Positions 4,301 through 46,693 of a stretch of DNA of 64,000 nt are shown piece by piece (positions within the stretch are counted from its first letter, which is position 1; each line of letters opens with the position of its first letter). Made by a program: the position numbers and the translations under genes. Where the stretch lies: the NCBI GenBank assembly GCA_945639195.1, contig CALZEE010000002.1, forward strand, positions 124,001-188,000, given 5' to 3'. This DNA is from an uncultured Ignatzschineria sp. GTDB lineage: Bacteria > Pseudomonadota > Gammaproteobacteria > Cardiobacteriales > Wohlfahrtiimonadaceae. The notes beneath the pieces were generated by a model, which worked only from the letters and a program-made list of their open reading frames with translations, did not search any database and had not been told where the DNA came from.

Positions 4301-4364
4301 CAACTCTCAGAAATCGGCATCTAGCTCCGATTGATATCTACTTATTTATGGGTTGAATTTCTCA

Positions 4365-4859
4365 ATGAAAAAACAGAAAGTCGCCATTATTATGGGAAGC
4401 AAAAGCGATCTGCCTACAATGCAGAATGCCGCTCAGATGCTTAACCAATTTTCCATCTCCTATGACATGAAAGTTGTCTCTGCACATAGAACGCCAGAGC
4501 ATATGGTCTCGTTTGCATTAAATGCAAAAGATGCCGGCTATGACGTGATTATTGCCGGAGCGGGTGGTGCTGCGCACTTACCTGGAATGGTTGCATCCTT
4601 AACACCGCTTCCTGTCATTGGTGTTCCAATAAAGACAAGTACGCTGAGTGGAGTTGACTCCCTCTATTCCATTGTCCAGATGCCGGGTGGTATTCCTGTG
4701 GCAACGATGGCTATTGGTGATGCGGGCGCAAAAAATGCAGGCCTCTTCGCAGCACAAATTTTAGCCCTTACTAACGACGATTTATATCATAAGCTAAAAA
4801 CATTCCGCGAAAAGCAGACTGAAAATGTTTTAGCAGATAGCACTATAGAGGAGAGATAG
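4365..4859 (+). CDS. purE: 5-(carboxyamino)imidazole ribonucleotide mutase PurE
   Basis: PurE class I interconverts N5-CAIR and CAIR in de novo purine synthesis. The motif GSKSDLPTM near the N-terminus, [11 protein letters not shown], and the glycine-rich [12 protein letters not shown] are the class I signature; SAHR contains the catalytic histidine. The length (164 aa) is normal. ATG at 4365 gives [15 protein letters not shown]; a TTG at 4353 would add four residues. It is the first gene of a tight operon, five bases before purK, and both genes of the two-step carboxylation route are present. Confidence 0.95.
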
Positions 4860-4864
4860 TCATC

Positions 4865-5989
4865 ATGCACATTTTACCCGGAAAAACTATTGGTATTATT
4901 GGTGGTGGGCAACTAGGTAAAATGTTAGCAGAAGCAGCAAATAGGATGGGCTATTATGTCATTACCCTTGATCCTGCTTCAGATGCACCGGCTGTATCAG
5001 CCTCCCATGGGCATATTGTCTCTGGGTTCTCCAATGAAGAAGGATATGAAACCCTCATCTCTCGTTGTGACGTTGTCACTTATGAGTTTGAGAACATCAG
5101 TGCGGCGCTAGTAAAGCGCCTTAATGCTGAGTACCATAACATTCCTCAAGGTGAGCTTCCGCTCTACCTCGCACAAAACAGAAAACGTGAAAAAGCAGCG
5201 CTCACGGAAGCAGGTCTTCCCGTGGCGCCTTATGTTGTGCTTGAAAATCCGGAAGCAGAGATCTCAAATGCAGTTAATACACTCAATTTCCCCTTCGTCG
5301 TGAAGACACAAGAGGGTGGATATGATGGGAAAGGGCAAGTAGTGGTGAGAAGTGAGGCCGATCTTTCTAAGGTCGCAACACTTTATGGCATTCCTTGTGT
5401 GGCTGAGAAGTTTATCCCTTACGATTGGGAATGTTCTATTATCGGCACTCGCTCGATTAATGGCGAGTATCGACACTTCCCAATTGCCGAGAATCATCAT
5501 GTTAACAATATCCTCTTTAAAACCACGGCAGGTGGTGAAAAGGTAACAAAAGCGCTTGAGCTAGAGCTCAATGAAATGCTACAGACCTTTATGGAGACGC
5601 ATAACATCGTAGGAACGCTTGCAATGGAAGCATTTATTGTAGGCGAGACGGTATATGTCAATGAGTTAGCACCAAGACCGCATAACTCAGGACACTTTAC
5701 GATTGAAGGCTGCGCAACAAGCCAGTTTGAGCAACATATCCGTGCGATTTGTGGCTTACCACTCGGCGATACAACGCTGCTTCAAAAAACCGTGATGTTT
5801 AATATCCTCGGACAAGATAAAGCATTTTTATTTGATTACATTCCAAAAATGTCACCGGATGCGCATCTTCACCTCTATGGTAAAAAAGAATTTAAGAATA
5901 ACCGTAAAATGGGTCATGTCACCTTTACGGGGAATGAAGGCTTAGCCGCTTTCGAAGCAACAATGACAGAAAGTTTTGAAATAAACTAA
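4865..5989 (+). CDS. purK: 5-(carboxyamino)imidazole ribonucleotide synthase PurK
   Basis: This ATP-grasp ligase carboxylates AIR to N5-CAIR using ATP and bicarbonate. It begins with TIGIIGGGQLGKMLAEAA, the PurK N-terminal dinucleotide-like motif. FVVKTQEGGYDGKGQ is the ATP-grasp glycine-rich loop, and VNELAPRPHNSGHFTIE is the metal/ATP-binding strand. The length (374 aa) is normal. A good ribosome-binding site (gaggagag) precedes ATG 4865. It is followed 15 bp later by purL. Confidence 0.95.
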   Translation: MHILPGKTIGIIGGGQLGKMLAEAANRMGYYVITLDPASDAPAVSASHGHIVSGFSNEEGYETLISRCDVVTYEFENISAALVKRLNAEYHNIPQGELPLYLAQNRKREKAALTEAGLPVAPYVVLENPEAEISNAVNTLNFPFVVKTQEGGYDGKGQVVVRSEADLSKVATLYGIPCVAEKFIPYDWECSIIGTRSINGEYRHFPIAENHHVNNILFKTTAGGEKVTKALELELNEMLQTFMETHNIVGTLAMEAFIVGETVYVNELAPRPHNSGHFTIEGCATSQFEQHIRAICGLPLGDTTLLQKTVMFNILGQDKAFLFDYIPKMSPDAHLHLYGKKEFKNNRKMGHVTFTGNEGLAAFEATMTESFEIN

Positions 5990-6004
5990 CACTCAAGGAC
6001 TCCA

Positions 6005-9000
6005 ATGAAACGCCGATTTTATATTGAAAGTACGCCATGCTATTCAACTGAGGCTGCTGCCTTATTAAGAGAGCTTAACGCCGCGCTTAATATTCAGACA
6101 TTAACAAAAGTGCGACTCATTCAAGTTTATGACCTCTTTGCTTTAGAAGAGAACGAACAGGATAAAGTACGTGCAGTCTTAATGCAGCCGACACGTGACG
6201 AACTAGTGGATGAAACTGCCTTGTTGCAATCATTGAATAGTACGCCACATTTTGCAATTGAGAGCTTGCCGGGTCAGTATGATCAGCGTGCTTACAGTGC
6301 AGAGCTAGGTTTTAAAGTGGCAGGTGCTTCACATAAAACGCAAGTTTCAACGGCGCTCCTCTACTGCTTTAATGAGGATCTTTCAGGAAGTGATCTTGAG
6401 AAAATACAAAACTACTGCTTTAACCCGATTAACTCACGCTTAAAAGATTTAAGCCTTGAGATTAACGACACGCGCTTTATTGATACTCGCGCACCTAAGG
6501 CCGTTGAGAAAATTGCAGACTTCATTCATATGTCAGAATCTAAACTCGTAGAGTTTAAGCTTGGCATGGGGCTTGCAATGGAGTTTGAAGATCTTGAGCA
6601 TATTCAAAAATATTATCAATCAGAAAAGCGTAACCCGACAGAAACAGAGCTCCTTGTGCTCGATACTTACTGGTCGGATCACTGCCGTCATACCACGTTT
6701 GAAACCTCGCTTTTAGATCTCGATTTCACTGCAAGTCAGTTCCACGAGCAGTTACAACAAGCTTATGATGATTATCGCGGTCTTCGTGAAGCAACGGGGA
6801 TTACTGCACGTCCTGAAACACTTATGGATATGGCAACCGTATTTGGCCGTTATCAACGTAAAACAGGCGAGCTTGCAGATATGGAAGTATCTGATGAAGT
6901 GAACGCATGTTCTGTGCGTATTAATGTGGATGTCGATGGCAAACTTGAGCCTTGGCTCTTAATGTTTAAAAACGAAACGCATAACCACCCGACAGAGATC
7001 GAGCCATTTGGTGGCGCGAACACTTGTGTAGGCGGCGCGATTCGTGACCCATTATCTGGCCGTGCGTATGTTTATCAAGGCATGCGTATCACAGGCGCCG
7101 GCAATGTATTAGAAGCAGAAGAAGCAACGCTTCCGAATAAGCTTTCACAACGCCGTATTAGCCGTGTTGCAGCACTCGGTAACAGTTCATATGCGAATCA
7201 AATTGGGGGCACGACTGCTTTTGCAAAAGAGTATATCCACCCAGGATTTGTGGCAAAACGCATGGAGCTTGGTGCGGTTGTTGGGGCAGTACGTGAAGAC
7301 TTCGTTGTGCGTGAAAAACCTATTGATGGCGATGTGATTATCCTTTTAGGCGCAAAAACAGGCCGTGATGGCGTGGGCGCAGCAACAGGATCATCAAAAG
7401 TACAAACGGTAGAAACGGTAGAAACAGCAGGTTCAGACGTACAGAAAGGTTGCGCAAGTGAAGAGCGTAAGATTCTTCGCCTCTTCCGTAAAAAAGCGGT
7501 GACAACCTTAATCAAAAAATCCAATGACTTTGGCGCGGGCGGTGTGTCCGTTGCGATTGGTGAGCTTGCAGATGGCGTTTACGTTAATCTTGATAAAGTG
7601 CCTACTAAATATGCCGGCCTTAACGGTACGGATCTTGCGATCTCAGAATCACAAGAGCGTATGGCAGTTGTGGTTGCAAAAGAGAATGCCGATAAATTCA
7701 TCGCGCTTGCTAAAGAAGAGTCAGTAGAAGCGATTATTGTTGCGACTGTGACCGCAGATCCGCGTTTAGTGATCGAGTGGAAAGGCGAAAAAATCGTTGA
7801 TATCGCAAGATCATTCTTAGATACCAACGGTATTCGTAAAAATGCAACGGCGAAAGTGGTTGATAGCAACAAACCTTCACCGCTTCTGCATCGTGAAGAG
7901 ACTGCCGATATCCAACTTGCATGGAAAACCTTACTTGCAGATTGCAATATCGCGAGCCAAAAAGGGATGAATCAGAACTTTGATTCAACGCTCGGCCGCT
8001 CAACTGTATTACTCCCATTTGGGGGCAAATGCCAAGCAACACCGGCAGAAGTTTCATTACAAAAAATTCAAGTCGAAGCAGGCGAAACGCAAACTGCAGC
8101 GATCTTAGCACACGGTTATAACCCTTACATCGGCGAATGGTCTCCGTTCCATGGTGCAGCTTATGCAGTGATCGAATCACTCTGCCGTACCGTTGCAAGT
8201 GGCGGTAACCCAACGCGTGCGCGCCTCTCATTCCAAGAGTACTTCGAGCGCCTTGATGGTGTTCCTGAGCGCTTTGGTAAGCCTGTTGCGGCATTACTTG
8301 GTTCAATCGATGCACAAAAAGCATTTAACGTGCCAAGTATTGGTGGTAAAGACAGTATGAGTGGTTCATTCGAAGATATCGATGTCCCACCAACGCTCGT
8401 TTCATTTGCGGTAACGCCAGTGAAAACAGAAGATGTGATCTCGCCTGAATTTAAAGAGAGCGGCGATTATATCTACCTTCTCCCAGTAAAAGAGAATGTG
8501 ACTAGCGCTATTCCTTACGCAGAGATTAAACATAACTTTGAAGTGTTCCAAGCGCTCCATGCAAAACATACGATTCATTCAGCCAGTTCTGTTCGCCAAG
8601 GCGGCGTTGCAGAGAGCTTAGCGATGATGAGTTTTGGTAACCGCATTGGGGCAAACATTGAGAATATCTCAACGCATGATCTCTTCCGCCCACAATACGG
8701 CGCATTTGTGATTGCAACGCGTCAAGCATTACCAGAATCAGATGATTACTGCTTAATCGGAACAACTTTAAGCGAATATCGTTTCGACTTTGGTCAAACA
8801 ACGATCTTAGGAACAACGCTTCAAGCAGCTGCAGAAGACCGTTTCGAGTCAATTTACCCGATCTATCAAAAGAGCGAAGGTTTAGCAGATAAAGTTCCGG
8901 CAAATGCCTTAAGCCAAGCGGCAGCATCACTGAAAGTGGCTAAAGCATCAGCACTTATTCCAGTGTTTGAAGGCACGCACAGTGAATATGACGTCGCAAA

Positions 9001-9742
9001 AGGCTTTGAGCAAGCAGGTGCTACGGCAACGATGCTCCCGATTGTGATGCTCTCTGAAGCAGATTACAAAGCGTCTATCGATGCCTTTATTAAAGGTTTA
9101 GAAAGCGCACAGATCTTAAGCTTAGCCTCTGGTTTTGCAAGCACAGAAGAGCCGGCAGGTACTGGTTCGACAATGGCACTCTTCTTGGCACGCCCAGAAG
9201 TGAAAGCAGCCGTTGAAGCATTCATTGCAAAAGGCGGCTTAATCGTTGGGATCAACGCTGGCTTCCACGCATTGATGAAAACAGGGCTTCTCCCTTATGG
9301 TGAGTATCGTGATAATAACGATGCGATCTTGGCGACAAACCTTTATGGTGAGTTTAAAGCACAAATGGTGACGACAGAAGTTGTAAACAACGCTTCACCA
9401 TGGTTCAGCAATGCCCAAATTGGCGAGCAGCATGTCTTACCGTTTGCAGCACTTGAAGGTCGTTTAGTAATTACGGACGCACTCTTTGAAACGCTAAAAG
9501 CTAATGGTCAAATCGCGACGCAATATGTGGATCATAAAGGGCGTGCAACACTTGATGCGACCTTTAACCCTGCAGTATCGCAACATGCTATTGAAGCGCT
9601 TACAAGCCCGAATGGTCAGATCCTTGGTAAAATGGCGCATAGTGAGCGTTATGAAGCAGGGCTCTTCCTCAATATGCCGGGCAACAAACAACAATCAATC
9701 TTTGAAAATGCAGTGGCACATGTGACCACTTCTCAACAATAA
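6005..9742 (+). CDS. purL: FGAM synthase PurL, single-chain Firmicutes type, glutaminase nucleophile lost
   Basis: PurL converts FGAR to FGAM, normally with glutamine as nitrogen donor. This 1245-aa chain matches the large single-chain form typical of streptococci and clostridia. The synthetase core is intact: DTYWSDHCRHTTFE near residue 221, KNETHNHPTEIEPFGG near 325, and GGKDSMSG near 780. In the C-terminal class I glutaminase domain the nucleophile elbow, GICNGFQ in the Streptococcus protein as I remember it, reads GINAGFH here (residues 1082-1088). The catalytic Cys is therefore Asn1084. The upstream oxyanion segment, normally GGFS, is SGFA. His1212 and Glu1214 (AHSER) are kept. The domain is present at full length but should not hydrolyse glutamine. 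See the findings for the matching defect in PurF. Confidence 0.93.
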   Translation: MKRRFYIESTPCYSTEAAALLRELNAALNIQTLTKVRLIQVYDLFALEENEQDKVRAVLMQPTRDELVDETALLQSLNSTPHFAIESLPGQYDQRAYSAELGFKVAGASHKTQVSTALLYCFNEDLSGSDLEKIQNYCFNPINSRLKDLSLEINDTRFIDTRAPKAVEKIADFIHMSESKLVEFKLGMGLAMEFEDLEHIQKYYQSEKRNPTETELLVLDTYWSDHCRHTTFETSLLDLDFTASQFHEQLQQAYDDYRGLREATGITARPETLMDMATVFGRYQRKTGELADMEVSDEVNACSVRINVDVDGKLEPWLLMFKNETHNHPTEIEPFGGANTCVGGAIRDPLSGRAYVYQGMRITGAGNVLEAEEATLPNKLSQRRISRVAALGNSSYANQIGGTTAFAKEYIHPGFVAKRMELGAVVGAVREDFVVREKPIDGDVIILLGAKTGRDGVGAATGSSKVQTVETVETAGSDVQKGCASEERKILRLFRKKAVTTLIKKSNDFGAGGVSVAIGELADGVYVNLDKVPTKYAGLNGTDLAISESQERMAVVVAKENADKFIALAKEESVEAIIVATVTADPRLVIEWKGEKIVDIARSFLDTNGIRKNATAKVVDSNKPSPLLHREETADIQLAWKTLLADCNIASQKGMNQNFDSTLGRSTVLLPFGGKCQATPAEVSLQKIQVEAGETQTAAILAHGYNPYIGEWSPFHGAAYAVIESLCRTVASGGNPTRARLSFQEYFERLDGVPERFGKPVAALLGSIDAQKAFNVPSIGGKDSMSGSFEDIDVPPTLVSFAVTPVKTEDVISPEFKESGDYIYLLPVKENVTSAIPYAEIKHNFEVFQALHAKHTIHSASSVRQGGVAESLAMMSFGNRIGANIENISTHDLFRPQYGAFVIATRQALPESDDYCLIGTTLSEYRFDFGQTTILGTTLQAAAEDRFESIYPIYQKSEGLADKVPANALSQAAASLKVAKASALIPVFEGTHSEYDVAKGFEQAGATATMLPIVMLSEADYKASIDAFIKGLESAQILSLASGFASTEEPAGTGSTMALFLARPEVKAAVEAFIAKGGLIVGINAGFHALMKTGLLPYGEYRDNNDAILATNLYGEFKAQMVTTEVVNNASPWFSNAQIGEQHVLPFAALEGRLVITDALFETLKANGQIATQYVDHKGRATLDATFNPAVSQHAIEALTSPNGQILGKMAHSERYEAGLFLNMPGNKQQSIFENAVAHVTTSQQ

Positions 9743-9764
9743 TCCGAGCGGAAAGGTATTAACA

Positions 9765-10478
9765 ATGTCAGAATTACTCTATGAAGGTAAAGCAAAACAG
9801 ATCTATAGCACCGATAATCCTAACCAAGTGTTAATTCACTACAAGGATGATGCGACCGCTGGAAATGGGGCGAAAAAAGCACAGTTTGAAGATAAAGGCG
9901 TTTTAAACGCAGCAATCTCAACCATGATTTTCGATTACTTAATCGAAAACGGCATTAAAACGCACCTTGTTGAGCAAGTGAATGATCGTGATGTATTATG
10001 CGAAAAGATCGATATCGTATTGCTTGAAGTGATTATGCGAAACATCGCAACAGGCTCACTCACAAGCCGTTTAGGAATTAAAGAAGGGACGGAATTAAAT
10101 CCACCAATCCTTGAGTTCTGCTACAAAAAAGACGAATTTAACGATCCCCTTATCAACGTAGATCACGCGCTTGCATTGAATCTTGCAACTCGTGAAGAGA
10201 TCGAAACAATCTCTGTTGAAGCACGTAAAATTAACGAATTGTTAAAAGTGCTCTTCGCGGAGATCGGTATTTCACTCGTTGACTTCAAAGTAGAATTTGG
10301 CCGTAATCCAGAGGGCAACATTGTCTTAGCGGATGAGATCAGCCCAGATACTTGCCGCCTTTGGGATATCGAAACACATAGCAAGCTCGATAAAGACCGT
10401 TTCCGCCAAGATTTAGGCAACGTGATTGATGCTTACCGTGAAATTCATAAGCGTCTTCTTGCGCGCAAGGAGAAATAA
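9765..10478 (+). CDS. purC: SAICAR synthetase PurC
   Basis: PurC condenses CAIR with aspartate, using ATP, to give SAICAR. ELLYEGKAKQIYSTD at the N-terminus, the RNIATGSLTSRLGI loop and DEISPDTCRLWD are family signatures. The 237-aa length is that of the short bacterial form. The ribosome-binding site is gcggaaagg. Its last codons carry the AAGGAG that serves as the ribosome-binding site of purF, and the TAA stop directly abuts the purF GTG. Confidence 0.95.
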   Translation: MSELLYEGKAKQIYSTDNPNQVLIHYKDDATAGNGAKKAQFEDKGVLNAAISTMIFDYLIENGIKTHLVEQVNDRDVLCEKIDIVLLEVIMRNIATGSLTSRLGIKEGTELNPPILEFCYKKDEFNDPLINVDHALALNLATREEIETISVEARKINELLKVLFAEIGISLVDFKVEFGRNPEGNIVLADEISPDTCRLWDIETHSKLDKDRFRQDLGNVIDAYREIHKRLLARKEK

Positions 10479-11846
10479 GTGTTTGCAGTTATTGGTAATC
10501 CAAATGCTGCTTCCTTAACGTACTACGGGCTGCATAGTTTGCAGCACCGTGGGCAAGAAGGTGCTGGAATCTCAGTGCTCGATCATGAGGGTGAAATGCA
10601 TACGATCAAAGGGGAAGGTCTTTTAACCGACGTTTTCTCAGATCCTGCTATGCTCTCTAAATTGCCGGGTACATCAGGGATTGGTCATATTCGTTATCCC
10701 TCAAACGGGGAGAAAGGTTATGACAACGTTCAGCCACTCTTAATGAAGATGAGCGATGAGAAATTCGCGATCTCCTACAACGGTAACATCACAAATACGC
10801 AAGCCCTTCGTCGTGATCTTGAAGCACAAGGCAGTGTATTTCACGCATCAGGCGATGCCGAAATTCTCGTGCATCTGATTCGCCGTAAAAAAGGGACATT
10901 CTTAGAGCGCTTAACCGCCTCACTTTTAGAGCTCGAAGGCGCATTTAACTACTTCATTTTGCATGATAGTGGTGTATATGCGGTGCGAGATCGTAAAGGG
11001 ATTCGTCCACTTTGTATCGGTAAATTGGCAGATGGCGGTTACGTCTTTGCCTCTGAAACTTGTGCGCTCGGTATCGTCGGCGCAACTTACATTCGTGATG
11101 TCATGCCGGGCGAGATCGTCTACGTGGAAGATGGCCGTATTATCTCGAGCTTCTTCACAGAAGATCGCCTTCATGCAATCTGCTTAATGGAATATGTCTA
11201 CTTTGCGCGCCCAGATAGTGATTTGGAAGAGCGTAACGTCCATAGCTTTAGAAAGCAGAGCGGTATTGAACTCTGTAAAGAGACGCATGTGGATGCAGAT
11301 ATGGTGATTGGTGTGCCAGATTCATCAATCTCGGCGGCCAATGGTTATGCAGAAGCGGCGGGGCTCCCAAATGAGATGGGACTCATCAAAAACCGTTATG
11401 TTGGCAGAACCTTCATCAAGCCGACACAAGCGCTTCGTGAGCAGGGTGTTCGTATGAAGCTTGCCCCGATTCCATCAGTGGTGAAGGGCAAACGCGTTAT
11501 TGTGATTGATGACTCGATTGTCCGCGGTACAACTAGCCGCCGTATCGTGCAGATGTTACGAGATGCCGGCGCGACAGAGATTCATATGCGAGTTTCATCA
11601 CCACCGATTATGTATCCATGCTTCTATGGCGTAGATACGTCTCATCGAGAAGATTTATTAGCACATCAGCTTGATCTCGAAGAGATGCGCCGTCATATTA
11701 AAGCAGATTCATTAGCGTTCTTAAGTAGAGAAGGCACGGTAAGAGCATTGAAGCGCTCTGAATCACTCGGCCCTAATTGCGGCGTGTGTATGGCGTGCTT
11801 CACGGGCGAATACCCAACGGATGTTGCGCATTTAAGCAGTAAATAA
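10479..11846 (+). CDS. purF: amidophosphoribosyltransferase PurF, Fe-S type, lacking the N-terminal Cys
   Basis: PurF makes phosphoribosylamine from PRPP, the committed step of purine synthesis. The protein is of the Bacillus/Streptococcus type. The transferase half has the PRPP motif VIVIDDSIVRGTTSRR. The four Fe-S cysteines of that type are visible at about residues 235, 381, 434 and 437 (HAICLMEY, YPCFYG, NCGVC). Normally the mature chain begins with the nucleophile in CGVFG. Here the chain starts M(GTG)FAVIG. Aligning on LTYYGLHSLQHRGQEGAGI puts Met at the family's Val, so Cys and Gly would fall on the codons AAA TAA, the end of purC. The GTG has AAGGAG six bases upstream. Other glutamine-site residues also drift: SDTE to GDAE (125-128), AHNGN to SYNGN. 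Glutaminase activity is probably lost. Confidence 0.9.
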   Translation: MFAVIGNPNAASLTYYGLHSLQHRGQEGAGISVLDHEGEMHTIKGEGLLTDVFSDPAMLSKLPGTSGIGHIRYPSNGEKGYDNVQPLLMKMSDEKFAISYNGNITNTQALRRDLEAQGSVFHASGDAEILVHLIRRKKGTFLERLTASLLELEGAFNYFILHDSGVYAVRDRKGIRPLCIGKLADGGYVFASETCALGIVGATYIRDVMPGEIVYVEDGRIISSFFTEDRLHAICLMEYVYFARPDSDLEERNVHSFRKQSGIELCKETHVDADMVIGVPDSSISAANGYAEAAGLPNEMGLIKNRYVGRTFIKPTQALREQGVRMKLAPIPSVVKGKRVIVIDDSIVRGTTSRRIVQMLRDAGATEIHMRVSSPPIMYPCFYGVDTSHREDLLAHQLDLEEMRRHIKADSLAFLSREGTVRALKRSESLGPNCGVCMACFTGEYPTDVAHLSSK

Positions 11847-11858
11847 TCAATAATCAGT

Positions 11859-11905
11859 CCGGCATTTATCTTACCAAACGATATGGATATGGGAGAAAAT
11901 GCCGG
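11859..11905. repeat. inverted pair of ATGCCGG words between purF and purM
   Basis: ccggcattt at 11859-11867 and aaatgccgg at 11897-11905 form 9-bp complementary arms around a 29-nt loop in the 123-bp purF-purM spacer. There is no T-run, so efficient termination is doubtful. It may act as a 3' stabilising hairpin or simply hold an uptake-word pair. Confidence 0.6.
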
Positions 11906-11969
11906 GATTGAGATCAGATAACAGATTGAAATGAAATTTTTAGCTAAAAATTTTTCAAAGGAATAGAGC

Positions 11970-12980
11970 ATGAGTGATGCATATAAGAAAGCCGGCGTAA
12001 ACCTTGAAGCAGGTTATGAATCGGTTGAACGTATTAAAAAGCATGTCGCAAGCACAATGCGTATTGGCGCAATGGACATCTTCGGAGATTTTGGCGGATC
12101 ATTCGATCTCTCAGAGCTCAACTATAAAAAACCTGTTCTCGTATCAGGAACAGATGGCGTTGGTACAAAGCTTAAACTTGCATTCGAAATGAATATCCAC
12201 GACACCATCGGGATTGATGCGGTAGCAATGTGCGTGAATGACATCTTAACGCAAGGCGCAGAGCCACTCTTCTTCTTAGATTACATTGCTTGTGGTAAAA
12301 ACGACCCAGCACAAATCGAAGCGATCGTAAAAGGCGTTTCAGAAGGCTCTAAAATGTCAGGTTCAGCGCTTCTTGGTGGTGAAACCGCAGAAATGCCGGG
12401 CTTCTATCAAGATGGCGAATACGATATTGCAGGTTTTGCAGTCGGCGTTGTTGAGAAAGATGAGCGTGTTACCAAAGCGAATGTTAAACCTGGCGATGTT
12501 ATCATCGGTTTACCTTCAAGCGGCGTGCATAGTAATGGTTTCTCATTAGTGCGTCATATCATTAAAGAGCAAGGTTTAGACTTCCATACAACGTACGAAG
12601 GCTTTGATAAGCCATTAGGCGAGGTGCTCTTAACACCAACGATGATCTACGTTAAAGAAGTTTTAAACCTTCTTAAATCCGTTAAAGTGAACGCAATGGC
12701 GCATATCACTGGTGGCGGTTTCTATGAAAACGTTCCAAGAATGCTCTCTGGCAACTTAGGCGCAAAATTTGATTCAAACGCATGGACAAAACCAGCAGTA
12801 TTCCCATTCCTTCAGAAGCAAGCGGGCATTTCAGATAAAGAGATGTTCACGGTCTTCAACATGGGCGTGGGCTATATGATCGTGGTTGATCCTAGCGTTG
12901 CAGATCAAGCGCTTTCGCTTTTAGAGAATGCATCAATCATTGGTGAAATCACTGAAACAGGCGAGGTTGAGATCGCATAA
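11970..12980 (+). CDS. purM: phosphoribosylaminoimidazole synthetase (AIR synthase) PurM
   Basis: PurM cyclises FGAM to AIR with ATP and belongs to the same ATP-binding superfamily as the PurL core. The N-terminal [20 protein letters not shown], the [14 protein letters not shown] nucleotide loop, [11 protein letters not shown] and [16 protein letters not shown] are all diagnostic. The 336-aa length is normal. The ribosome-binding site aaaggaa precedes ATG 11970. The gene follows purF after a 123-bp spacer that carries an inverted uptake-word pair, and its stop overlaps the purN start by one base. Confidence 0.95.
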
Positions 12981-13552
12981 TGAAAAATATTGCCATCTTT
13001 GCATCAGGAACAGGCTCTAACTTTGACGCGCTCATCAGTGCGATCGAAGCAGGGAAGCTTAGCGCAAACGTGAAGCTTTTAGTCTGTGATAAAAAATCCG
13101 CGAAAGTCATCGAAAAAGCAGAAGCGAAGGGCATTGCCACACTCGTTTTCTCTGCCAAAGATTACGCATCAAAAGCAGAATACGAGACAATGATTGTCGA
13201 GCGTCTGCGTGGGCTCGATGTAGAGTGGGTAGTATTAGCGGGCTATATGCGCCTATTGGGCGAGGTTCTATTAGACGCATATCCGCATAAAATCATTAAC
13301 ATTCATCCCTCTCTATTGCCGGCATATAAAGGCAAAGATGCAGTGCTTCAAGCGCTTAAAGCCCGTGAAAAAACGGTCGGCGTGTCGATTCATTACGTCG
13401 ATGAGGGAATGGATACCGGTCAATTGATCGCGCAAGAGTCCATCCATCTAACGGGACGCGAAAGCGAAATGGAAGTCATGGAGATGGTGCATCACATCGA
13501 GCATCAACTCTATCCTAAAACCTTAGAAGCACTCTTTACCGGTCAAAAATAG
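12980..13552 (+). CDS. purN: phosphoribosylglycinamide formyltransferase PurN
   Basis: PurN transfers the formyl group of 10-formyl-THF to GAR. It has the N-terminal IFASGTGSNFDAL phosphate loop, and the catalytic INIHPSLLPAYKG with the Asn and His of the family. The later catalytic Asp lies in HYVDEGMDTGQLIAQ. The 190-aa length is normal. The TAATG overlap with purM implies translational coupling. A hairpin terminator follows at 13563. Confidence 0.95.
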   Translation: MKNIAIFASGTGSNFDALISAIEAGKLSANVKLLVCDKKSAKVIEKAEAKGIATLVFSAKDYASKAEYETMIVERLRGLDVEWVVLAGYMRLLGEVLLDAYPHKIINIHPSLLPAYKGKDAVLQALKAREKTVGVSIHYVDEGMDTGQLIAQESIHLTGRESEMEVMEMVHHIEHQLYPKTLEALFTGQK

Positions 13553-13927
13553 GCATTGAAAGAATCCCATTAGGTGAAATTCCTGATGGGATTTTAAATG
13601 CCAAAAACTTGGCAAATGCCGGAAAAATGATGCCGAAAAGCATCGGAAAGTATCGAAAAGCAGTGAAGCTAAAAGGCAGCACTAAAGCTGGCAAGCGGTA
13701 GCAACAAGCATGCAATCCTTCAACCCAGCTTTGAATCAGCCGGAATCTACAAAGAGAAGGCTAAGACAGAAACACCAAACATATAACGCTCAGAGCAACA
13801 CTCTGAGCACCTCATTCGGGCATGACGGGCGTCATTCCCACGCGGTACGTTGATGAGAGATCTTAAGCAGACCCTTCAGCAGTATCGCAATATTATCGTT
13901 GTTATTTTAGAAAGGACAGATCTAATC
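13553..13927 (+). other. purN-purH spacer
   Basis: This 375-bp gap starts with the purN terminator. It then holds several short near-copies of the ATGCC word: atgccaaaaa about 13598, atgccgg 13616, atgccgaaaag about 13629. The remainder is unremarkable, with no convincing ORF. An in-frame ATG at 13850 would extend PurH by 26 residues, but these do not look like PurH. I looked for a ZTP riboswitch and did not find its conserved segments. Confidence 0.5.
13563..13595 (+). terminator. terminator after purN
   Basis: aatcccat at 13563-13570 pairs with atgggatt at 13586-13593, with an inner agg/cct extension, followed by a short T-run. It would separate purH from the purE-N transcript unless read through. 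Confidence 0.65.
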
Positions 13928-15469
13928 ATGACTAAGCGACGCGCTCTTTTAAGTGTAAGTGATAAAACAGGTATTACCGACTTCGCAGCGAAGCTTGTAG
14001 ATTTAGGCTTCGAGCTTATCTCAACAGGTGGTACTAAAAAATCAATCGCTGATGCGGGAATTCCCGTAAAAGATATTTCAGACATTACTGGCTTCCCAGA
14101 GATCATGGATGGACGTGTAAAAACGCTTCATCCTATGGTTCATGGCGGTCTTCTCTCTGTTCGCGGGAACGATGTTCATACAAAAGCAATGACAGATAAC
14201 GGTATTGAATATATCGATATGGTTGTTGTGAATCTCTATCCATTCAAAGAGACTGTTTCTAAGCCAAACGTACAGTACAAAGACGCGATTGAAAACATCG
14301 ATATCGGTGGACCTTCAATGCTCCGTAGTGCGGCGAAAAACCACGAATCAGTAACGGTTATCACAGATCCAGCAGATTACGATATCGTGATTGAAGAGTT
14401 CAAAGCCAATGGCGACACAACGTTCGCAACTCGCCAACGTTTAGCGCTTAAAGTGTATCAAACGACAGCAGCGTACGATGCGTTGATCGCACAATACTTC
14501 GCCAACGAATTAGGCGATGAGTTCCCAGAGAAACTCACTTTAACCTACGAGAAGCAACAAGGTCTTCGTTACGGCGAAAACCCGCACCAAGAAGCGGCAT
14601 TCTACAGAACGCCACTTGCACAAAACAACTCACTTGCGCACGCAACGCAAATTCACGGTAAAGAGCTCTCATACAACAATATCCAAGACGCAAACGCGGC
14701 TGTGAATATTATGCTTGAGTTCAAAGAGCCTGTGGTTGTCGCAGTAAAACACATGAACCCATGTGGCGTTGGCTTAGGCAAAACACTCTTTGAAGCATGG
14801 ACAAAAGCGTACGAAGCAGACTCAACGTCTATCTTTGGCGGTATCATCGCAACGAACTGTGAAGTAGATGCGAAAACAGCAGAGAAAATGAGCGAGATCT
14901 TCCTTGAGATCATCATTGCACCAAGCTTCACAGAAGAAGCGAAAGCAATCCTCATGGCGAAGAAAAACATCCGCTTATTAGAAAACAACGTTCAAGAAGC
15001 ACGCATTGCAGAGACAATGACAACAACAGCTGTGAACGGTGGTCTTTTAGTACAAAACCTCGACCGCGCAGAGATCGATGCAGATGACTTCCAAGTGGTA
15101 ACGGATCGTAAACCATCACAAGAAGAGATGGATGCATTAGTATTCGCATGGAAAATCGTGAAGCACGTTAAATCAAACGCGATCGTTGTTGCTAAAGAAG
15201 GCCAAACGCTTGGAATCGGCGCGGGTCAAATGAACCGTGTTGGTGCTGCGAAAATCGCCCTTGAGCAAGCAGGCGAAGAAGCAGTGGGTAACGTACTTTC
15301 ATCAGATGCATTCTTCCCAATGCCGGATACGCTTGAAAACGCTGCAAAAGCAGGTATCAAAGCAGTTATCCAACCAGGCGGATCAATCAAAGACCAAGAT
15401 TCAATTGATGTTGCGAACAAATACGGCATCACAATGGTCTTCACAGGAATGCGTCATTTCAAACACTAA
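13928..15469 (+). CDS. purH: bifunctional AICAR transformylase / IMP cyclohydrolase PurH
   Basis: PurH performs the last two steps to IMP. The N-terminal MGS-like cyclohydrolase domain starts [15 protein letters not shown] and contains [11 protein letters not shown] and DGRVKTLHP. The AICAR transformylase domain has [11 protein letters not shown], the catalytic KHMNPCGVG, and [12 protein letters not shown] near the C-terminus. I chose ATG 13928 (513 aa, normal length) because aaagga lies upstream and the protein then begins at the conserved start; an ORF start at 13850 adds non-homologous residues. It is the last gene of the main cluster, and purD lies at 36 kb. Confidence 0.95.
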
Positions 15470-15676: not shown

Positions 15677-16846
15677 CTATGATTTATCCTGTTCTTCAGC
15701 ATTGTGAACTATGAATTTGGCTCGTTCATAAAGCTCGTCAAAAGTTATTATTTCTGGGTTATGTGTGTTCTTTCTATATAATTCTAATGAACGATATTGC
15801 TCTTCATTGATACCATTTTTATTTACTAATTCTGATAATTTACCGATGATAAGATATGATTTTGGTAGATAGTTAAATATATTCTCACCTGTAGGAAAGC
15901 CCTTTAAATCAGTAATAGTTATTTTGTTTCCAATTGTTTCAATGGCTGAAGCTACTGTACCTTGTACTTGAGCTACAGCACCGGCTAATTCATTTGATGG
16001 TCTCCAGCAACCAACACGATATGGAGTATTATGAAGTAGAGATGTTCTATGAGTTTTTATCTCTATAAAACATAAGTTTGATATAAAACCTTTTGATTTC
16101 ATAAGAGCATCAACTCGTTTTCCATGTGTAGCTATGTCGTAACCAGCAACAACCTGTTCGAGCTTTTTATCATTTAAAGAAGAGAGGTAAATATAATTTA
16201 AACTATAACCAAAAATCCAAGGGTTTTTTTCAAAAAATCGTTGCCATACGCCCTCATCTGTACAATTCATTTTTTGTTTACAAGATTCAAAATATACTGA
16301 ATCATTCAAAAGGGATTCAAAAATATTTAACTGCTTTTTACGATATGCAATAGCTACAATATCTTTTTTAGTAAGGGAGGAACGAACAACTTCTAATAAT
16401 ATTTCTTCATTATCTTTTAAGAGATTAACAAGTTGTTGATCTGATAATTGCGTGTGCCGTAATTTATCGTCATTTATATTAAGCGGGGCATTACTATCCA
16501 AAGGTATAAATTCAATATTTTGAATAAACTCATAAAGTTTTCCTATCTCATCGCCAACAAATGAAAAACTTGCATTGTGGGGCTTATCTGTGGCAACTGA
16601 ATACCCTTGAATATTTAAAACTGTTATATCACGAGATTTTTCAAAGAAAGTTGCTTTGATATAAGTTTTGGCATTTTCTTTGTGTCGTATTATAGTTTCT
16701 TCTTTAATTTTTGAAAATGCGTAAGAATCTTTAGATTCAATGACTTTAGAGACAATTCTAATTCGTCTATTATCGTCCCCAAAAGCTTTTAGGCTCGGGC
16801 TAACATATGTTTTATCAGGTTTTGGATCTAAATAATTATCTGTCAT
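15677..16846 (-). CDS. Shedu-family (DUF4263) antiphage nuclease
   Basis: The 389-aa product has a C-terminal DUF4263 domain, the nuclease core of the single-gene Shedu (SduA) defence system. Visible core: NPWIFGYSLNYIY, then GKRVDALMKSKG (catalytic Asp, about residue 240), then CFIEIKTHRTSLL (E-x-K, about 260), then SNELAGAVAQVQG, the conserved glutamine helix. This is a PD-(D/E)XK fold. The N-terminal about 200 residues form the variable sensor region seen in Shedu proteins. The gene is AT-rich compared with its flanks, lacks the ATGCCGG word and lies beside another AT-rich gene on the same strand, all suggesting recent transfer. Start ATG 16846. Confidence 0.8.
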   Translation of the reverse strand: MTDNYLDPKPDKTYVSPSLKAFGDDNRRIRIVSKVIESKDSYAFSKIKEETIIRHKENAKTYIKATFFEKSRDITVLNIQGYSVATDKPHNASFSFVGDEIGKLYEFIQNIEFIPLDSNAPLNINDDKLRHTQLSDQQLVNLLKDNEEILLEVVRSSLTKKDIVAIAYRKKQLNIFESLLNDSVYFESCKQKMNCTDEGVWQRFFEKNPWIFGYSLNYIYLSSLNDKKLEQVVAGYDIATHGKRVDALMKSKGFISNLCFIEIKTHRTSLLHNTPYRVGCWRPSNELAGAVAQVQGTVASAIETIGNKITITDLKGFPTGENIFNYLPKSYLIIGKLSELVNKNGINEEQYRSLELYRKNTHNPEIITFDELYERAKFIVHNAEEQDKS

Positions 16847-17081: not shown

Positions 17082-18839
17082 TTATTTTGAGCATAATATT
17101 TCTACTTTAATGCCATTTTCACGGCATATTCCAATAAATGAAGATAATAGCCATAACAGTTGATAGATATGTGCACGTACAGAATTTCCCATTGTTAAAC
17201 TATGAAGTTGTTCTAATAAATCTTTTTTAGAAAGAAAGGGGGTTGCTAGAATTACTTTTTTGCTTGCATTAGGATTGGTATTTAGTTTATTTAATATTGT
17301 TTTTAAATTTTCTTTTTCTTCTTTTGGACTCAGATTAGTTTTTCCAGTTATATTAAACAGTTTTATTCTAGAATTTGCATAATATCCAGACCAAGATCTA
17401 TCATATTTATCAAGGTAGTCTTCCGTTGTTGCATTTATATACATTAAGTTTTTTATGGCTTGAGAAATAACCTCATGGAAATAAGATGCTCCAAGGGATT
17501 TTTTATTAATATATTTTTCGTGGATATAAGATATTTCCTTAGCTGTTATTATTATATGATCTGCCCATTCATTTCCTAAATCATCACATATACTGATAGA
17601 GTCCCCTGTATTATAAATATTTTCTATATGCTTAAATAATGAAGTATCGGGAAATGATGTCATTTCTTTTGTAATTTTCTCCGTTTCCTTTTCAGTTATA
17701 ACATTAGAAAAATCATGCTTATCGATTAAAACGTGAGTTAGAGTTGGAATAATATCGGTTATGCTTTTATCTATATAACATGTATTCCCATAGTAAGCGT
17801 ATTTAGGGGAATCAAACATACATTGTATTATTTTTGAACTATTAATGTATTTTGGCAATGATATTTTTGAATCTTTAAAATTAATAATGAATTCATTTAA
17901 AAATTTAGACTGAATAGTAATAGTTTTTTTGTTTATTTTAATATTCCCAAATTTAGAGTATTTATCATTTTTGATCTTAATAACTTTTTTAAAAAAATTA
18001 AAAAGCCTATCAATTTGATCTTTTTTTAAAATGTTATTGTTATAACTTATTGTTACCTCAGAAGACTCTACTAATTTATTGAGTCTAGCTAAGTCAATAA
18101 AAGTGGCAATAACCTTTCTGTTATCCTTAATAATAACAGATGTTAGATCTATTTTTTTAGCGAATTGCTTAATAAAAGAACTTAGTTGTTTATTCGAAAA
18201 TTGGTCACAGACTGTTTTAATCCAATTTATAATTTCAGTTATATTAAGGGGAGATTTTTGTTCTCGAATCCTATTCGTTGATGGAGTAACGCTCCAAATA
18301 TTATCTACCTTAAATGTAAACTGATTTATTATAGAGCGAGATGTAACTGATGAGGATAAGCTTTTATCTAAGTTTCCAAATGTTTCATATGAACGTTTAA
18401 AAATTGTATTAGGCCCCATATTCATGTTATTAGCGGACATCTTATTATATGACGGAGAGTTGTGCGATTGAAAATGAAGAAAATAGTCTAAAGGAAGTTC
18501 AGAATAATTTAATGTTGAATATAATAAATCCGTGTTTGATATATTTTTTTGAAAAACTATCACATAGTTTTTATATTCAATGATTAATATCATCGCAAAT
18601 TTTATTTCAACTTCTGAGGAATTAATTAAAAAACTAGGTTTATCCTCATATTTAAAGCTCATTAATGAGTAGGTTACATCCATTTTAGAAATGTTTTTTT
18701 TAACTGTTCTATAAATATAATTACCTTTTCGATGTTCTGATAATTTTCGAAATAGATTTGTGATTAAATTTTTAGATAAATTAATGTTTTTTTTATAAAA
18801 TTGTGCTGATGTTGGAAAGACAAAATTATTTTCATCCAT
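17082..18839 (-). CDS. unknown 585-aa AT-rich accessory protein, possible defence gene
   Basis: I do not recognise this protein. It is Lys/Asn/Ile-rich, with no signal peptide or obvious transmembrane helix. The N-terminal 200 residues look like a beta-rich domain. Near residue 425 there is ICDDLGNEWADHIIIT, followed by ISYIHEKYINK and SYFHEVISQAIKNLMYI. This Asp-strand-'IHxK'-'QAxKNL' arrangement recalls phage-defence proteins that end in a nuclease-like domain, but I cannot name the family. Its base composition, strand and lack of the ATGCCGG word match the Shedu gene 235 bp downstream. The two probably arrived together between purH and the 18.9-kb gene. Confidence 0.6.
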   Translation of the reverse strand: MDENNFVFPTSAQFYKKNINLSKNLITNLFRKLSEHRKGNYIYRTVKKNISKMDVTYSLMSFKYEDKPSFLINSSEVEIKFAMILIIEYKNYVIVFQKNISNTDLLYSTLNYSELPLDYFLHFQSHNSPSYNKMSANNMNMGPNTIFKRSYETFGNLDKSLSSSVTSRSIINQFTFKVDNIWSVTPSTNRIREQKSPLNITEIINWIKTVCDQFSNKQLSSFIKQFAKKIDLTSVIIKDNRKVIATFIDLARLNKLVESSEVTISYNNNILKKDQIDRLFNFFKKVIKIKNDKYSKFGNIKINKKTITIQSKFLNEFIINFKDSKISLPKYINSSKIIQCMFDSPKYAYYGNTCYIDKSITDIIPTLTHVLIDKHDFSNVITEKETEKITKEMTSFPDTSLFKHIENIYNTGDSISICDDLGNEWADHIIITAKEISYIHEKYINKKSLGASYFHEVISQAIKNLMYINATTEDYLDKYDRSWSGYYANSRIKLFNITGKTNLSPKEEKENLKTILNKLNTNPNASKKVILATPFLSKKDLLEQLHSLTMGNSVRAHIYQLLWLLSSFIGICRENGIKVEILCSK

Positions 18840-23677: not shown

Positions 23678-26600
23678 ATGATGACTATTCTAGGGATGGG
23701 GCACCTTTTATTTTTGGATTTGGAAGTGAATCCAGCAGATAATCATATTTTTAAAGTAGGCGCTTTAAGTATTGTCAATTATGGACAAGCGAATGAGTCT
23801 ATTATCCGATATGAGAAAGATACACGTTCAATATCGACTTTAAAAGTAGCATTACAAGAAATTGCGGAGCTGGGAAAAGGCGCGAACTATCTTGTTGGTC
23901 ATAATTTAATAGAGCATGATTTGCCTTTATTGCGTGATCTGGGGATGGCGCTTGATTTCTTAGAACTTGATGTCATTGATACATTGCAATTATCGCCATT
24001 AGCTTTTCCTAAGAATCCTTATCATAGACTACTAAAAGATTATAAGCTGATACGCAGCGAGTTAAATTCACCATTACAAGATTGTGAAGCGACGAATATA
24101 TTGCTGAAAGAGCAATTAGTAGCTTTAACAGATTTTGCTGTCGATAATCTGAATGAATTACGTTGTTATCAGACAATATTATCCAAGGTAAATCCAACTT
24201 ATGCGTCGATATTATCACAAGTCACAAAACACGATGATTTAGAAAATGATGAATTTAAAAGCATTATGCTAACAATTCTTCGTAATGATAATACGGATAT
24301 TGAGATGTCGTATAAAGTCTGTACCACGCGGCTGAATAAGTTTTTAAATGAGGATACGCTTTTTGAATTAGACGTTGCGTTTCCTTTTTTATATACATTG
24401 TCATGGCTTCATGTAGCAGGAAGTAATTCGGTATTAGCGCCTTGGGTACGTTATCAATTCCCACAAACGGCGACTTTAATCTCTATGCTGCGAGAGGAAT
24501 CTTGTCAGCGGGCAGAATGTAGTTATTGCAATACGATTCATAATCCTCAGAAAGAACTCCAGCGTTATTTTGGTTTTGATGATTTTCGTTATGAAGACAT
24601 TGATAAAAATGAGAGTATTCAGCGTGATATTGTTGAGATTGGGATGAAAGATGAAAATATATTCGCGATATTACCTACGGGAGGTGGTAAATCCCTCTGT
24701 TATCAACTGCCTGCTTTAAATCGGTATTTTAGAAATGGTAGTTTAACTATTATTATTTCTCCATTACAAGCTTTAATGAAAGATCAGGTAGATGGTTTGA
24801 TTGAGAAAAACATCCATTGTGTTGCTGCATTAAATGGTCTGTTAAGTATGCCGGAACGAGCTGATGTGTTAGAAAAAGTGCAAATGGGGGATATTGGTGT
24901 TTTATTTGTATCGCCAGAGCAATTTAGAAGTTCTCGTTTTAAACGCGCCATCGAGCAACGTCAGATTGGGGCTTGGATCTATGATGAAGCTCACTGTTTG
25001 TCAAAGTGGGGAAGTGATTTTAGACCGGATTATCTCTATGTCGCGAAGTGCATTAAAGATTTTGCCGGTAAAAATGCGATTCCTCATGTCGGTTGTTTTA
25101 CGGCAACCGCTAAACAAGAAGTGATAGATGATATCAAAAGTCACTTTAAAGAGGTTCTAGGACTCTCTTTTATCGATAAAATTAGTTTGAAAGAACGAGA
25201 AAATTTATCCTTTGATATTGTGCAATGTGAAAGTCACGAGAAAACAGCGATTATTGCGGAATTATTAGATACGCATATTAATGAAGAAGGCGGCGGTATT
25301 GTATTTGTTGCGCGCCGAAAAAATGCAGAGGATATTGCTAAGCAACTCCAAGCGCAAGGGTGGAATTGTCAATATTTCCATGCCGGATTACCGGCGAATG
25401 AGAAAAAAGATATTCAAAATGACTTTATTGCAGGAGATATTAAAGTCATTGTTTCAACCAATGCTTTTGGAATGGGGGTTGATAAAGAGAATGTTCGTTT
25501 AGTCGTGCATGCAGATATCCCGGGGTCTTTAGAGAATTACTTGCAGGAAGCGGGTAGAGCGGGGCGAGATCAAGCCGCAGCAAAGTGTATCTTATTATAT
25601 GAACCTAGTGATATAGAGACGCAATTTCAATTAACAGAGTTTTCGAAGTTAACATATGGCGATATTGTCGCGATTTATCGTAAAATCCGCACAGAGCATG
25701 CCAAGCGGAATAAGAGTGCTGAGTTAATTATCAGCCCTCGAGAGATATTAAAAGATGCCTTGGTTGAGTCGATTGATGTTGATAATGACAATGCTACGAC
25801 AAAAGTAATCACAGCGGTTGCTTGGCTTGAGAAAGAGGGGTATTTAGAGCGTACGGATAATGTGGTACGAATTTTTCCTGCGCATCTCAAAGTGAGTTTA
25901 GAAGAAGCCCTTGAGAAGATTCATCAAGAGAATATCGGGCAAAGAAGAACACAAGAGTTTGTGAGTATTATTGAATATATTGCAAAAAGTCCTTCAGATA
26001 AAATCATTGCCACCGACATCTTAGCAGATCTTATAGCAGGTGGTTTAGAGGATGTTGCTGATATTTTACAGCAATTACAAAAAATGGGGATTTTAACAAA
26101 CAATACCTTGCTCACCGCCTATGTACGGCATGGAATTGTAGATACAACACAAAGGCGTTTAGAGTTATGTTTGTGGTGTGAGGACAATATTTTTTCATTA
26201 TTAAGCGAGATAGCATCCGGTGTTGAAGCTGATGAATGGTATACATTGGATTTAACCCTACTGTGCAATCGCATGAATGAGTTATTTGAAGGACATGCCT
26301 TAAAAGAACCCCTTAAGGGCTATCTTCTTAATAAAAAAATCATGCCCAAAATGATTAGTAAGATCTTAAAAGTCTTATGTGAAGATAAAGGGTTTAATAC
26401 AAATAAGGAGACTACATCACAGTCTATTCGCAATGAAAAAAACCTAGAAATTCGTAACGACTGTCGACGTGATGTTATTCAGTTAAAAGTACATAAACAG
26501 AGTTCTTGGCAAGATATTGAAGATAATGGTGCTGTAAGACGACTTATTGCTCAAGAGATTGTCTCCCATCTTATTAAAAAGGCAAAAGGGCAAGGAAAAG

Positions 26601-36116: not shown

Positions 36117-37379
36117 ATGAAAGTTTTAATTGTTGGTAAAGGTGGCCGCGAGCATGCGCTTGCTTGGAAAAGTGGTAAGAGTTCATTAGTATCGGAAGTC
36201 TTTGTAGCGCCAGGCAATGCCGGCATGAAAAACGATGCAACGCTCGTTGATATCGCAGAAACAGATGCGGTGGCACTCGCGGATTTTGCGGTTGCAAATA
36301 ACATTGAGCTAACAATTATTGGCCCAGAAGCAAGCCTTGTAGCCGGCGTTGCAGATGAGTTTAAAAAGCGGGATTTATTGGTGTGGGGGCCAGATAAAGC
36401 GGCAGCACAAATTGAAGGCAGTAAAGATTTCTCTAAACAGATGATGGTGAAATACGGTGCGCCAACAGCGCATTCAGAGAGCTTTACACAGAGTGATAAA
36501 GCACGTAGCTATGTCGAAAAAATTGGTTTGCCGATTGTGATTAAGGCAGATGGATTAGCGGCAGGCAAGGGCGTTGTGATTCCGGAAACACTTGAAGAAG
36601 CATTTGCCACAATTGACGATATGCTTGAAGGCAATCGCTTTGGTGCGGCCGGCGCTTGTATCTTAATTGAAGAGATGCTGATCGGTGAAGAGTTCTCGCT
36701 CATGTGCTTCGTACATGATGGGCAGATTATCCCGATGGTAATGGCGCAAGACCATAAACGTGCTTATGATAATGATGAAGGCCCTAATACGGGCGGAATG
36801 GGCGCATATGCACCGATCTTTGATGCGCAGAGTGAAGAAGTACAATCATCTGTAAAAGCGATTATGCAACCGATCGTAGATGGTTTAACAAAAGAGGGCA
36901 TGCCTTATACCGGATTCCTCTACGGTGGCTTATTCCTCACGCAAGAGGGCTTTAAGGTGATCGAGTTTAATGCGCGCTTTGGGGATCCTGAAGCACAAAT
37001 TATTCTCCCACTCTTAGAAACAGATTTTGTCGAGATTATCTATAATCTTCTCACGGATAAAAAGGTTCCCGAGATCAAATGGCGCAAACAGTTCGCAATC
37101 GGCGTTGTGCTTGCTTCAGAGGGATATCCAGATAACCCACAAACAGGTTATCCGCTCAATACGCCGACCTTTAATAATGAAGATGCGTTAATCTTCTATG
37201 CGGGCGTCAAAGAAGTGGATGGTAAGCTCGTCAGTGATGGTGGCCGTATTCTTCTAAATGTGGCAATTGCAGATGATTTCAAATCGGCGTACGATACAGC
37301 TTATGAGAATATGAAGCAGTTAGATGTGCCGCATACTTTCTTCCGTAGCGATATTGGTCATAAACAATTTAAGCGTTAA
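36117..37379 (+). CDS. purD: phosphoribosylamine-glycine ligase PurD (GAR synthetase)
   Basis: PurD joins phosphoribosylamine, the product of PurF, with glycine. The N-terminal VLIVGKGGREHALAWK, the ATP-grasp loop IVIKADGLAAGKGVVI, GPNTGGMGAYAPIF and IEFNARFGDPEAQIILPLL are diagnostic. The 420-aa length is normal. It is separated from the other pur genes by 20 kb and has its own promoter and terminator. The ribosome-binding site is caggaag. Confidence 0.95.
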   Translation: MKVLIVGKGGREHALAWKSGKSSLVSEVFVAPGNAGMKNDATLVDIAETDAVALADFAVANNIELTIIGPEASLVAGVADEFKKRDLLVWGPDKAAAQIEGSKDFSKQMMVKYGAPTAHSESFTQSDKARSYVEKIGLPIVIKADGLAAGKGVVIPETLEEAFATIDDMLEGNRFGAAGACILIEEMLIGEEFSLMCFVHDGQIIPMVMAQDHKRAYDNDEGPNTGGMGAYAPIFDAQSEEVQSSVKAIMQPIVDGLTKEGMPYTGFLYGGLFLTQEGFKVIEFNARFGDPEAQIILPLLETDFVEIIYNLLTDKKVPEIKWRKQFAIGVVLASEGYPDNPQTGYPLNTPTFNNEDALIFYAGVKEVDGKLVSDGGRILLNVAIADDFKSAYDTAYENMKQLDVPHTFFRSDIGHKQFKR

Positions 37380-43666: not shown

Positions 43667-43892
43667 TCAGCACAGTGCATATTGAAAACCAATAGAGAAT
43701 CGCATCCTGCCATGGGGCGATGTGTCAACTCATCATGACGATAGAGATCATCGATGACACACAGATCTCCCCATCGCACTTAGATTAATCAACGTTGAAA
43801 ATGCCGGAGTTTTAAATAGCCACATATCGAAGTATACGATTGCAAGGCGCATCTCCTTCACATTTTCAGCGGATAGAGAAAGGACAGATATT

Positions 43893-46421: not shown

Positions 46422-46510
46422 GGCGCAATGCATCATCAATATCGAAAATAGATCCATGATGATGTTGTAAACGAGAGAAGCGTTATAAGAGACGTATTAC
46501 AAGCATACAG

Positions 46511-46540
46511 AAGAGGAATATCAATCGGTATTCCTCTTTT
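46511..46540 (+). terminator. terminator after torA
   Basis: aagaggaata (46511-46520) pairs with tattcctctt (46529-46538), 8-nt loop, followed by T-rich sequence. It would lower torD expression relative to torA, or torD has its own promoter. Confidence 0.7.
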
Positions 46541-46693
46541 CTCTTATATTGAATGATGTGCATCACAAGATTGTAAAGATTGTGCAATAGGAAGATGGCT
46601 AAAGGCACTTTTTAAGCCATAATAGAGATTCAGTATCCGATTGTCAGTACTCAAGACAGATAGATGAACTAACGACGAGGTTAATGAAAATAG

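Follow-up and report, generated by a model that had tools for sequence, protein, structure and literature searches.

Can de novo purine synthesis in a bacterium rely on an FGAM synthase whose glutaminase domain has lost its nucleophile, and what would then serve as the nitrogen donor? This question is raised by purL within a 64,000-nucleotide stretch of DNA from an uncultured Ignatzschineria sp. of the Gammaproteobacteria, order Cardiobacteriales (this DNA is hereafter called the window, and the corresponding genome G000). The encoded PurL scores well above the curated TIGR01857 cut-off (1571.2 vs. 1057.05 bits) and covers almost the full profile (positions 1-1238 of 1239). The gene, its C-terminal domain and the active-site residues were located as follows:

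6005..9742, plus strand: purL, single-chain FGAM synthase of the TIGR01857 type, 1245 aa (1571 bits, profile positions 1-1238)
8939..9742, plus strand: C-terminal glutaminase-like domain of PurL, residues 979-1245, predicted from its sequence to be inactive (Pfam GATase_5, 168.6 bits)
9128..9139, plus strand: oxyanion strand SGFA, residues 1042-1045, GGFS in 90/90 outgroups (alignment)
9248..9268, plus strand: nucleophile elbow GINAGFH, residues 1082-1088 (alignment)
9254-9256, plus strand: AAC codon of Asn1084, in place of Cys (alignment)
9446..9460, plus strand: AALEG, residues 1148-1152, second altered pocket motif, SHGEG in outgroups (alignment)
9638..9646, plus strand: His1212-Ser-Glu1214 with the other two triad residues, Asn and Asp in the sister genus (alignment)

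The PurL alignment comprised 102 sequences, among them 90 outgroup rows with a residue at the Cys1084 column, which include many streptococci and clostridia and hence represent fewer independent samples than 90. All 90 read GICNGFQ at the elbow and possess Cys1084, Asn1085, Gln1088, Gly1042, Ser1045, His1149 and Gly1150, whereas the genus has Asn, Ala and His at positions 1084, 1085 and 1088, and Ser, Ala, Ala and Leu at 1042, 1045, 1149 and 1150. A preliminary description of this DNA had reported the GINAGFH elbow with both the Cys and the following Gln replaced, the change of the oxyanion motif from GGFS to SGFA, and the retention of His1212 and Glu1214, and all of these readings were borne out; however, the elbow had been placed at 9251-9271, and its true span lies three bases to the left. 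The Cys-His-Glu triad of a glutamine-hydrolysing FGAM synthase (EC 6.3.5.3) is therefore incomplete in this protein, as Cys1084 is replaced by Asn, and each of the pocket motifs of that enzyme (GGFS, CNGFQ, SHGEG) is altered (SGFA, NAGFH, AALEG). Within the glutaminase domain, 15 of the 63 near-invariant positions are changed, vs. 15 of 214 such positions in the synthetase part. As AAC differs at at least two bases from both Cys codons, a single sequencing error is excluded for Asn1084.

The preliminary description had further argued that this is not simple decay, and our results agree. The glutaminase domain is full length, in frame and under purifying selection, with dN/dS values of approximately 0.03-0.13 in most pairs (0.26 in one very close pair with few changes) that were slightly higher than those of the synthetase part in most genome pairs. 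Relaxed decay of the domain was rejected on the basis of these low values. An AlphaFold2 model of the domain produced with 24 homologues (pLDDT 91.6) predicts a confident PurL-GATase fold, and the top matches of this model in Foldseek were PurL structures, with Salmonella PurL ranking first (TMq approximately 0.8). A CPS1-like state, in which the GATase fold is kept and the catalytic Cys is replaced, was found for PurL and also for the full-length CarA of G000. From the chemistry of the reaction, PurL is expected to have lost glutamine-dependent FGAM synthesis.

Fixation of Asn1084 in the clade had been proposed as a test, and GINAGFH was indeed present in 8/8 genus genomes that have PurL (G000 and G002-G008; in G008, the elbow is located on a second contig). 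The sister genus (G011, G013) reads GLNGGMS, which also has Asn at the nucleophile position, and has in addition lost both remaining triad residues (His to Asn, Glu to Asp). The closest named genome by PurL is Ignatzschineria sp. F8392, with 80% identity. The protein is a full-length orthologue of the single-chain PurL of Streptococcus and Clostridium (TIGR01857; 51-52% identity to Streptococcus), but the elbow Cys, Asn and Gln and several pocket residues are replaced solely in the Ignatzschineria/sister clade. In the PurL tree, the genus and the sister genus are positioned beside Streptococcus (100/100) and apart from most order-level relatives, which makes it probable that purL arrived by transfer, with the Cys being lost afterwards.

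Genome searches identified no second PurL in G000 or in the single-contig genome G004. In G002 and G007 (loci L154 and L155), two PurL types per genome occurred, one Cys-bearing and one Cys-less; the second PurL is of the E. coli type with the motif GVCNGCQ and is 61% identical to that of other gammaproteobacteria vs. 55% to that of a second genus, g2. G001, one of the genus genomes, yielded no PurL, PurF or PurD match in the family searches. All gene absences described here derive from such searches, run on genomes that are either drafts or single contigs.

Within the window, purL is part of a cluster of eight intact genes in the order purE-purK-purL-purC-purF-purM-purN-purH (4353-15469). With purD nearby, the purE,K,L,C,F,M,N,H,D set is complete:

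4353..4859, plus strand: purE (TIGR01162)
4865..5989, plus strand: purK (NF004675)
9765..10478, plus strand: purC (TIGR00081)
11970..12980, plus strand: purM (TIGR00878)
12980..13552, plus strand: purN (TIGR00639)
13850..15469, plus strand: purH (NF002049, TIGR00355)
36117..37379, plus strand: purD (TIGR00877 match at G000:C2:160117-161370; GARS domains)

Just downstream of purH, at 15677-16846 and 17082-18839 (both minus strand), a homologue of Shedu SduA (548 bits) lies beside the candidate defence protein PDC-S71 (479 bits). Further putative defence genes on the plus strand of the window are a 1746-aa protein combining a DpdF-like DEAD-box helicase half with a UvrD helicase half (23678-28918), which is unusual and perhaps a defence gene; an overlapping AAA ATPase and partner gene (51702-54606), which match the PADLOC candidate pair PDC-M62A/PDC-M62B and are followed by a 477-aa protein with no Pfam or PADLOC match; and a 1230-aa protein matching the PADLOC DdmD model almost end to end (58694-62386; 532 bits), a candidate for anti-plasmid defence. 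A NapC/NirT-type multihaem cytochrome, a molybdopterin oxidoreductase and a chaperone-like protein of the TorD family at 42476-47398 (plus strand) probably form a TMAO-type reductase operon.

The loss of the catalytic Cys is wider than the preliminary description had seen, as it also concerns PurF, encoded in the same operon, as well as CarA, TrpG and PabA elsewhere. For PurF, the region around the gene start is laid out as follows:

10467..10472, plus strand: AAGGAG ribosome-binding site, 6 nt upstream of the purF GTG and shared by six genomes
10476..10481, plus strand: purC stop TAA abutting the purF start GTG
10479..11846, plus strand: purF, amidophosphoribosyltransferase without propeptide, Cys1 and Gly2, starting at a GTG equivalent to Val3 (TIGR01134, 470 bits)

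PurF passes the TIGR01134 cut-off of 350 bits, possesses the PRTase motif VIDDSIVRGTT, aligns with B. subtilis-type PurF (1AO0, 1GPH) over residues 2-449 and shares the C-terminal NCGxCxACFTG motif with it. Unlike that enzyme, however, it begins so late that the Phe4 position of mature 1AO0 is occupied by its second residue, whereas Cys-Gly precedes Val-Phe in 29/29 Cys-bearing relatives. The Cys1 that an N-terminal-nucleophile hydrolase carries at its mature N-terminus is accordingly absent. A misplaced gene start was considered and rejected, as an in-frame TAA is located right before the GTG, no Cys occurs in frame, and AAGGAG is present at the same distance in the six genomes. The shortened start was found in G000, G003, G004, G005, G006 and G008, which form one clade (100/100). 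The PurF proteins of G002 and G007 are Cys-bearing and are nested with those of g2 in the tree (98/97); these two genomes appear to have regained glutamine-dependent PurF and PurL copies by transfer, with the Cys-less PurL being kept. Apart from its start, the glutaminase domain of PurF is strongly conserved, with four mostly mild changes at 59 near-invariant positions and a dN/dS of 0.03-0.08. No second PurF was identified in G000 or G004; a search with the PurF class-II domain gave GlmS as the only other match.

CarA of G000 has GFGYQ in place of the GICLGHQ of relatives and FQASPE in place of FQGHPE, and the CarA proteins of G001, G004 and G008 read GLGHQ or GLGSQ; in all four, Phe or Leu stands in place of the Cys, and the His of the triad is missing. 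In G003, G005, G006 and G007, CarA consists of the N-terminal domain only, with carB adjacent and intact, so that every genus genome in which CarA was found has lost either the Cys or the whole glutaminase domain. The family search did not detect CarA in G002 or the sister genus. A separate Cys to Gly change (GLGLGHQ) occurs in CarA of the g2 genomes G016 and G017 (L197, L198). A PF00117 search of G000 recovered only GuaA, PyrG and the dead CarA, with the same result for G004, and no TrpG or PabA in either. Even so, G000 encodes TrpE (NF010079) and PabB (NF005486), and the trp operon of the sister genus genome G011 (D-CF-B-A-E) likewise has no TrpG. The Cys is retained in GuaA (GICYGMQ), PyrG (GLCLGMQ) and GlmS (MCGIFG) of the genus, which makes a general glutaminase artefact unlikely and also indicates that any switch of the nitrogen donor is not total, as these enzymes still use glutamine. 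Several genomes of the family have a second GMP synthase, 424-434 aa long, in which a short remnant is left at the N-terminus and no GATase domain is recognisable (L290:1606-2877, L292:1564-2865); in the sister genus, this is the only GMP synthase.

We consider it likely that de novo purine and carbamoyl-phosphate synthesis in Ignatzschineria have switched to free ammonia in place of glutamine as their nitrogen donor. The folded glutaminase-like domain of PurL would have lost the ability to form the glutamine thioester, cytosolic ammonia would directly enter the FGAM synthetase site, and the dead domain would persist in a structural or regulatory role. PurF, which keeps its N-terminal domain but starts past the nucleophile, would produce phosphoribosylamine from PRPP and ammonia only. 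For a protein-degrading bacterium in a maggot-associated niche, plentiful NH3 may remove the benefit of a glutaminase. Ignatzschineria is described from fly larvae and infested wounds, and the secretions and excretions of fly larvae are alkaline, probably via ammonia (PMC12435625). PRPP amidotransferases can form phosphoribosylamine from ambient NH3 or glutamine, and in yeast the balance depends on ammonium (PMC12017579). Ammonia as the actual donor, a sufficient supply in the niche and a structural role of the dead domains are what we infer. The family searches identified neither an Amt transporter nor a full-length GltB (glutamate synthase large subunit) in the genus, which fits a cell that is not short of ammonia. 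Urease was rejected as a genus-wide ammonia source, as it was seen only in G002 and G007. The regain of Cys-bearing PurF and PurL in the same two genomes suggests that ammonia use may have a cost. The strong constraint on the PurF glutaminase domain exceeds what a purely structural relic should need and hence counts against the ammonia explanation; the conservation of this domain beyond the first residues is its least certain step and may reflect a need for fold, oligomer or regulation.

The Cys losses could alternatively be early steps of a decay towards purine auxotrophy in a niche that supplies purines or nucleotides. The absence of PurL, PurF and PurD matches in G001 and the graded erosion of CarA across the family are in line with this reading, but it is unlikely, as the cluster holds eight intact purine genes and purD lies close to it, and it is the glutaminase functions that are hit and the synthetases that are spared. 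In addition, the synthetase and PRTase domains show dN/dS values of at most approximately 0.1, with similar values for the GATase domains, and the Cys-less states have persisted over large synonymous divergence (dS >1). Somewhat less probable still is a separate glutaminase acting in trans, i.e., a free-standing enzyme or a partner docking on the dead domains that feeds PurL, PurF and CarB. The conserved dead domains would offer possible docking surfaces, and PurQ and TrpG are known examples of split glutaminase subunits; however, the PF00117 search showed no extra class-I glutaminase in G000 or G004, the class-II search matched GlmS only, and a single partner is unlikely to serve several unrelated synthetases. 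Residual glutaminase activity via another nucleophile, or a native PurF Cys generated by unusual translation, is very unlikely. The glutamine-site residues of PurF beyond the N-terminus are largely kept, but Asn provides no thioester-forming nucleophile, and in PurL of the sister genus the His and Glu of the triad are gone as well. For PurF, no in-frame Cys is located near the start, readthrough of the TAA would give KEK-X-VFAV, and Phe as second residue is not expected to permit removal of the initiator Met. A sequencing, assembly or gene-start artefact has a negligible probability even though G000 is a draft assembly of 19 contigs, as the same states occur with different synonymous codons in independent genomes including single-contig assemblies, and an assembly error in purL was rejected because eight genomes share its state with different codons.

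The switch to ammonia has a parallel in vertebrate CPS1, in which the glutaminase domain is likewise retained with its nucleophile Cys replaced; the human enzyme has Ser at this position, does not use glutamine and takes free ammonia (PMC4655335). However, CPS1 is one enzyme serving ammonia detoxification, whereas in Ignatzschineria three or more unrelated biosynthetic enzymes are changed. Instead of the Ser of CPS1, Asn, Phe or Leu occurs, or the start of the protein is lost. Cys mutants of PRPP amidotransferases made in the laboratory by Zalkin and co-workers (cited in PMC12017579) reportedly keep ammonia activity and lose glutamine activity. By analogy, the Ignatzschineria PurF is predicted to behave alike; those mutants were engineered, whereas the Cys-less state described here is natural and fixed.

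On a broader scale, it seems fairly probable that a free-living, culturable clade has given up glutamine as donor network-wide, with ammonia as the general donor and with some species having regained PurF and PurL by transfer. The glutaminase of PurL, PurF, CarA, TrpG and PabA would then have been lost by point change, start deletion, domain deletion and gene loss. No published report of such a loss in bacteria was found, which is weak evidence of absence given incomplete literature coverage; as far as we found, a donor change across a whole bacterial genus has not previously been reported.

Glutamine amidotransferases are a textbook case of coupled catalysis with ammonia channelling, which is usually explained by the avoidance of ammonia loss. 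A lineage that repeatedly sheds the glutaminase half and keeps the synthetase half allows one to ask when channelling is needed, what level of ammonia can substitute for it, and which function remains to a dead glutaminase domain, with G002 and G007 and their regained Cys-bearing enzymes as a natural control. Automatic annotation still labels the Cys-less enzymes as glutamine-hydrolysing. If the switch is real, the affected steps would be predicted to resist the glutamine analogues DON and azaserine, and metabolic models of this carrion and wound bacterium would be affected.
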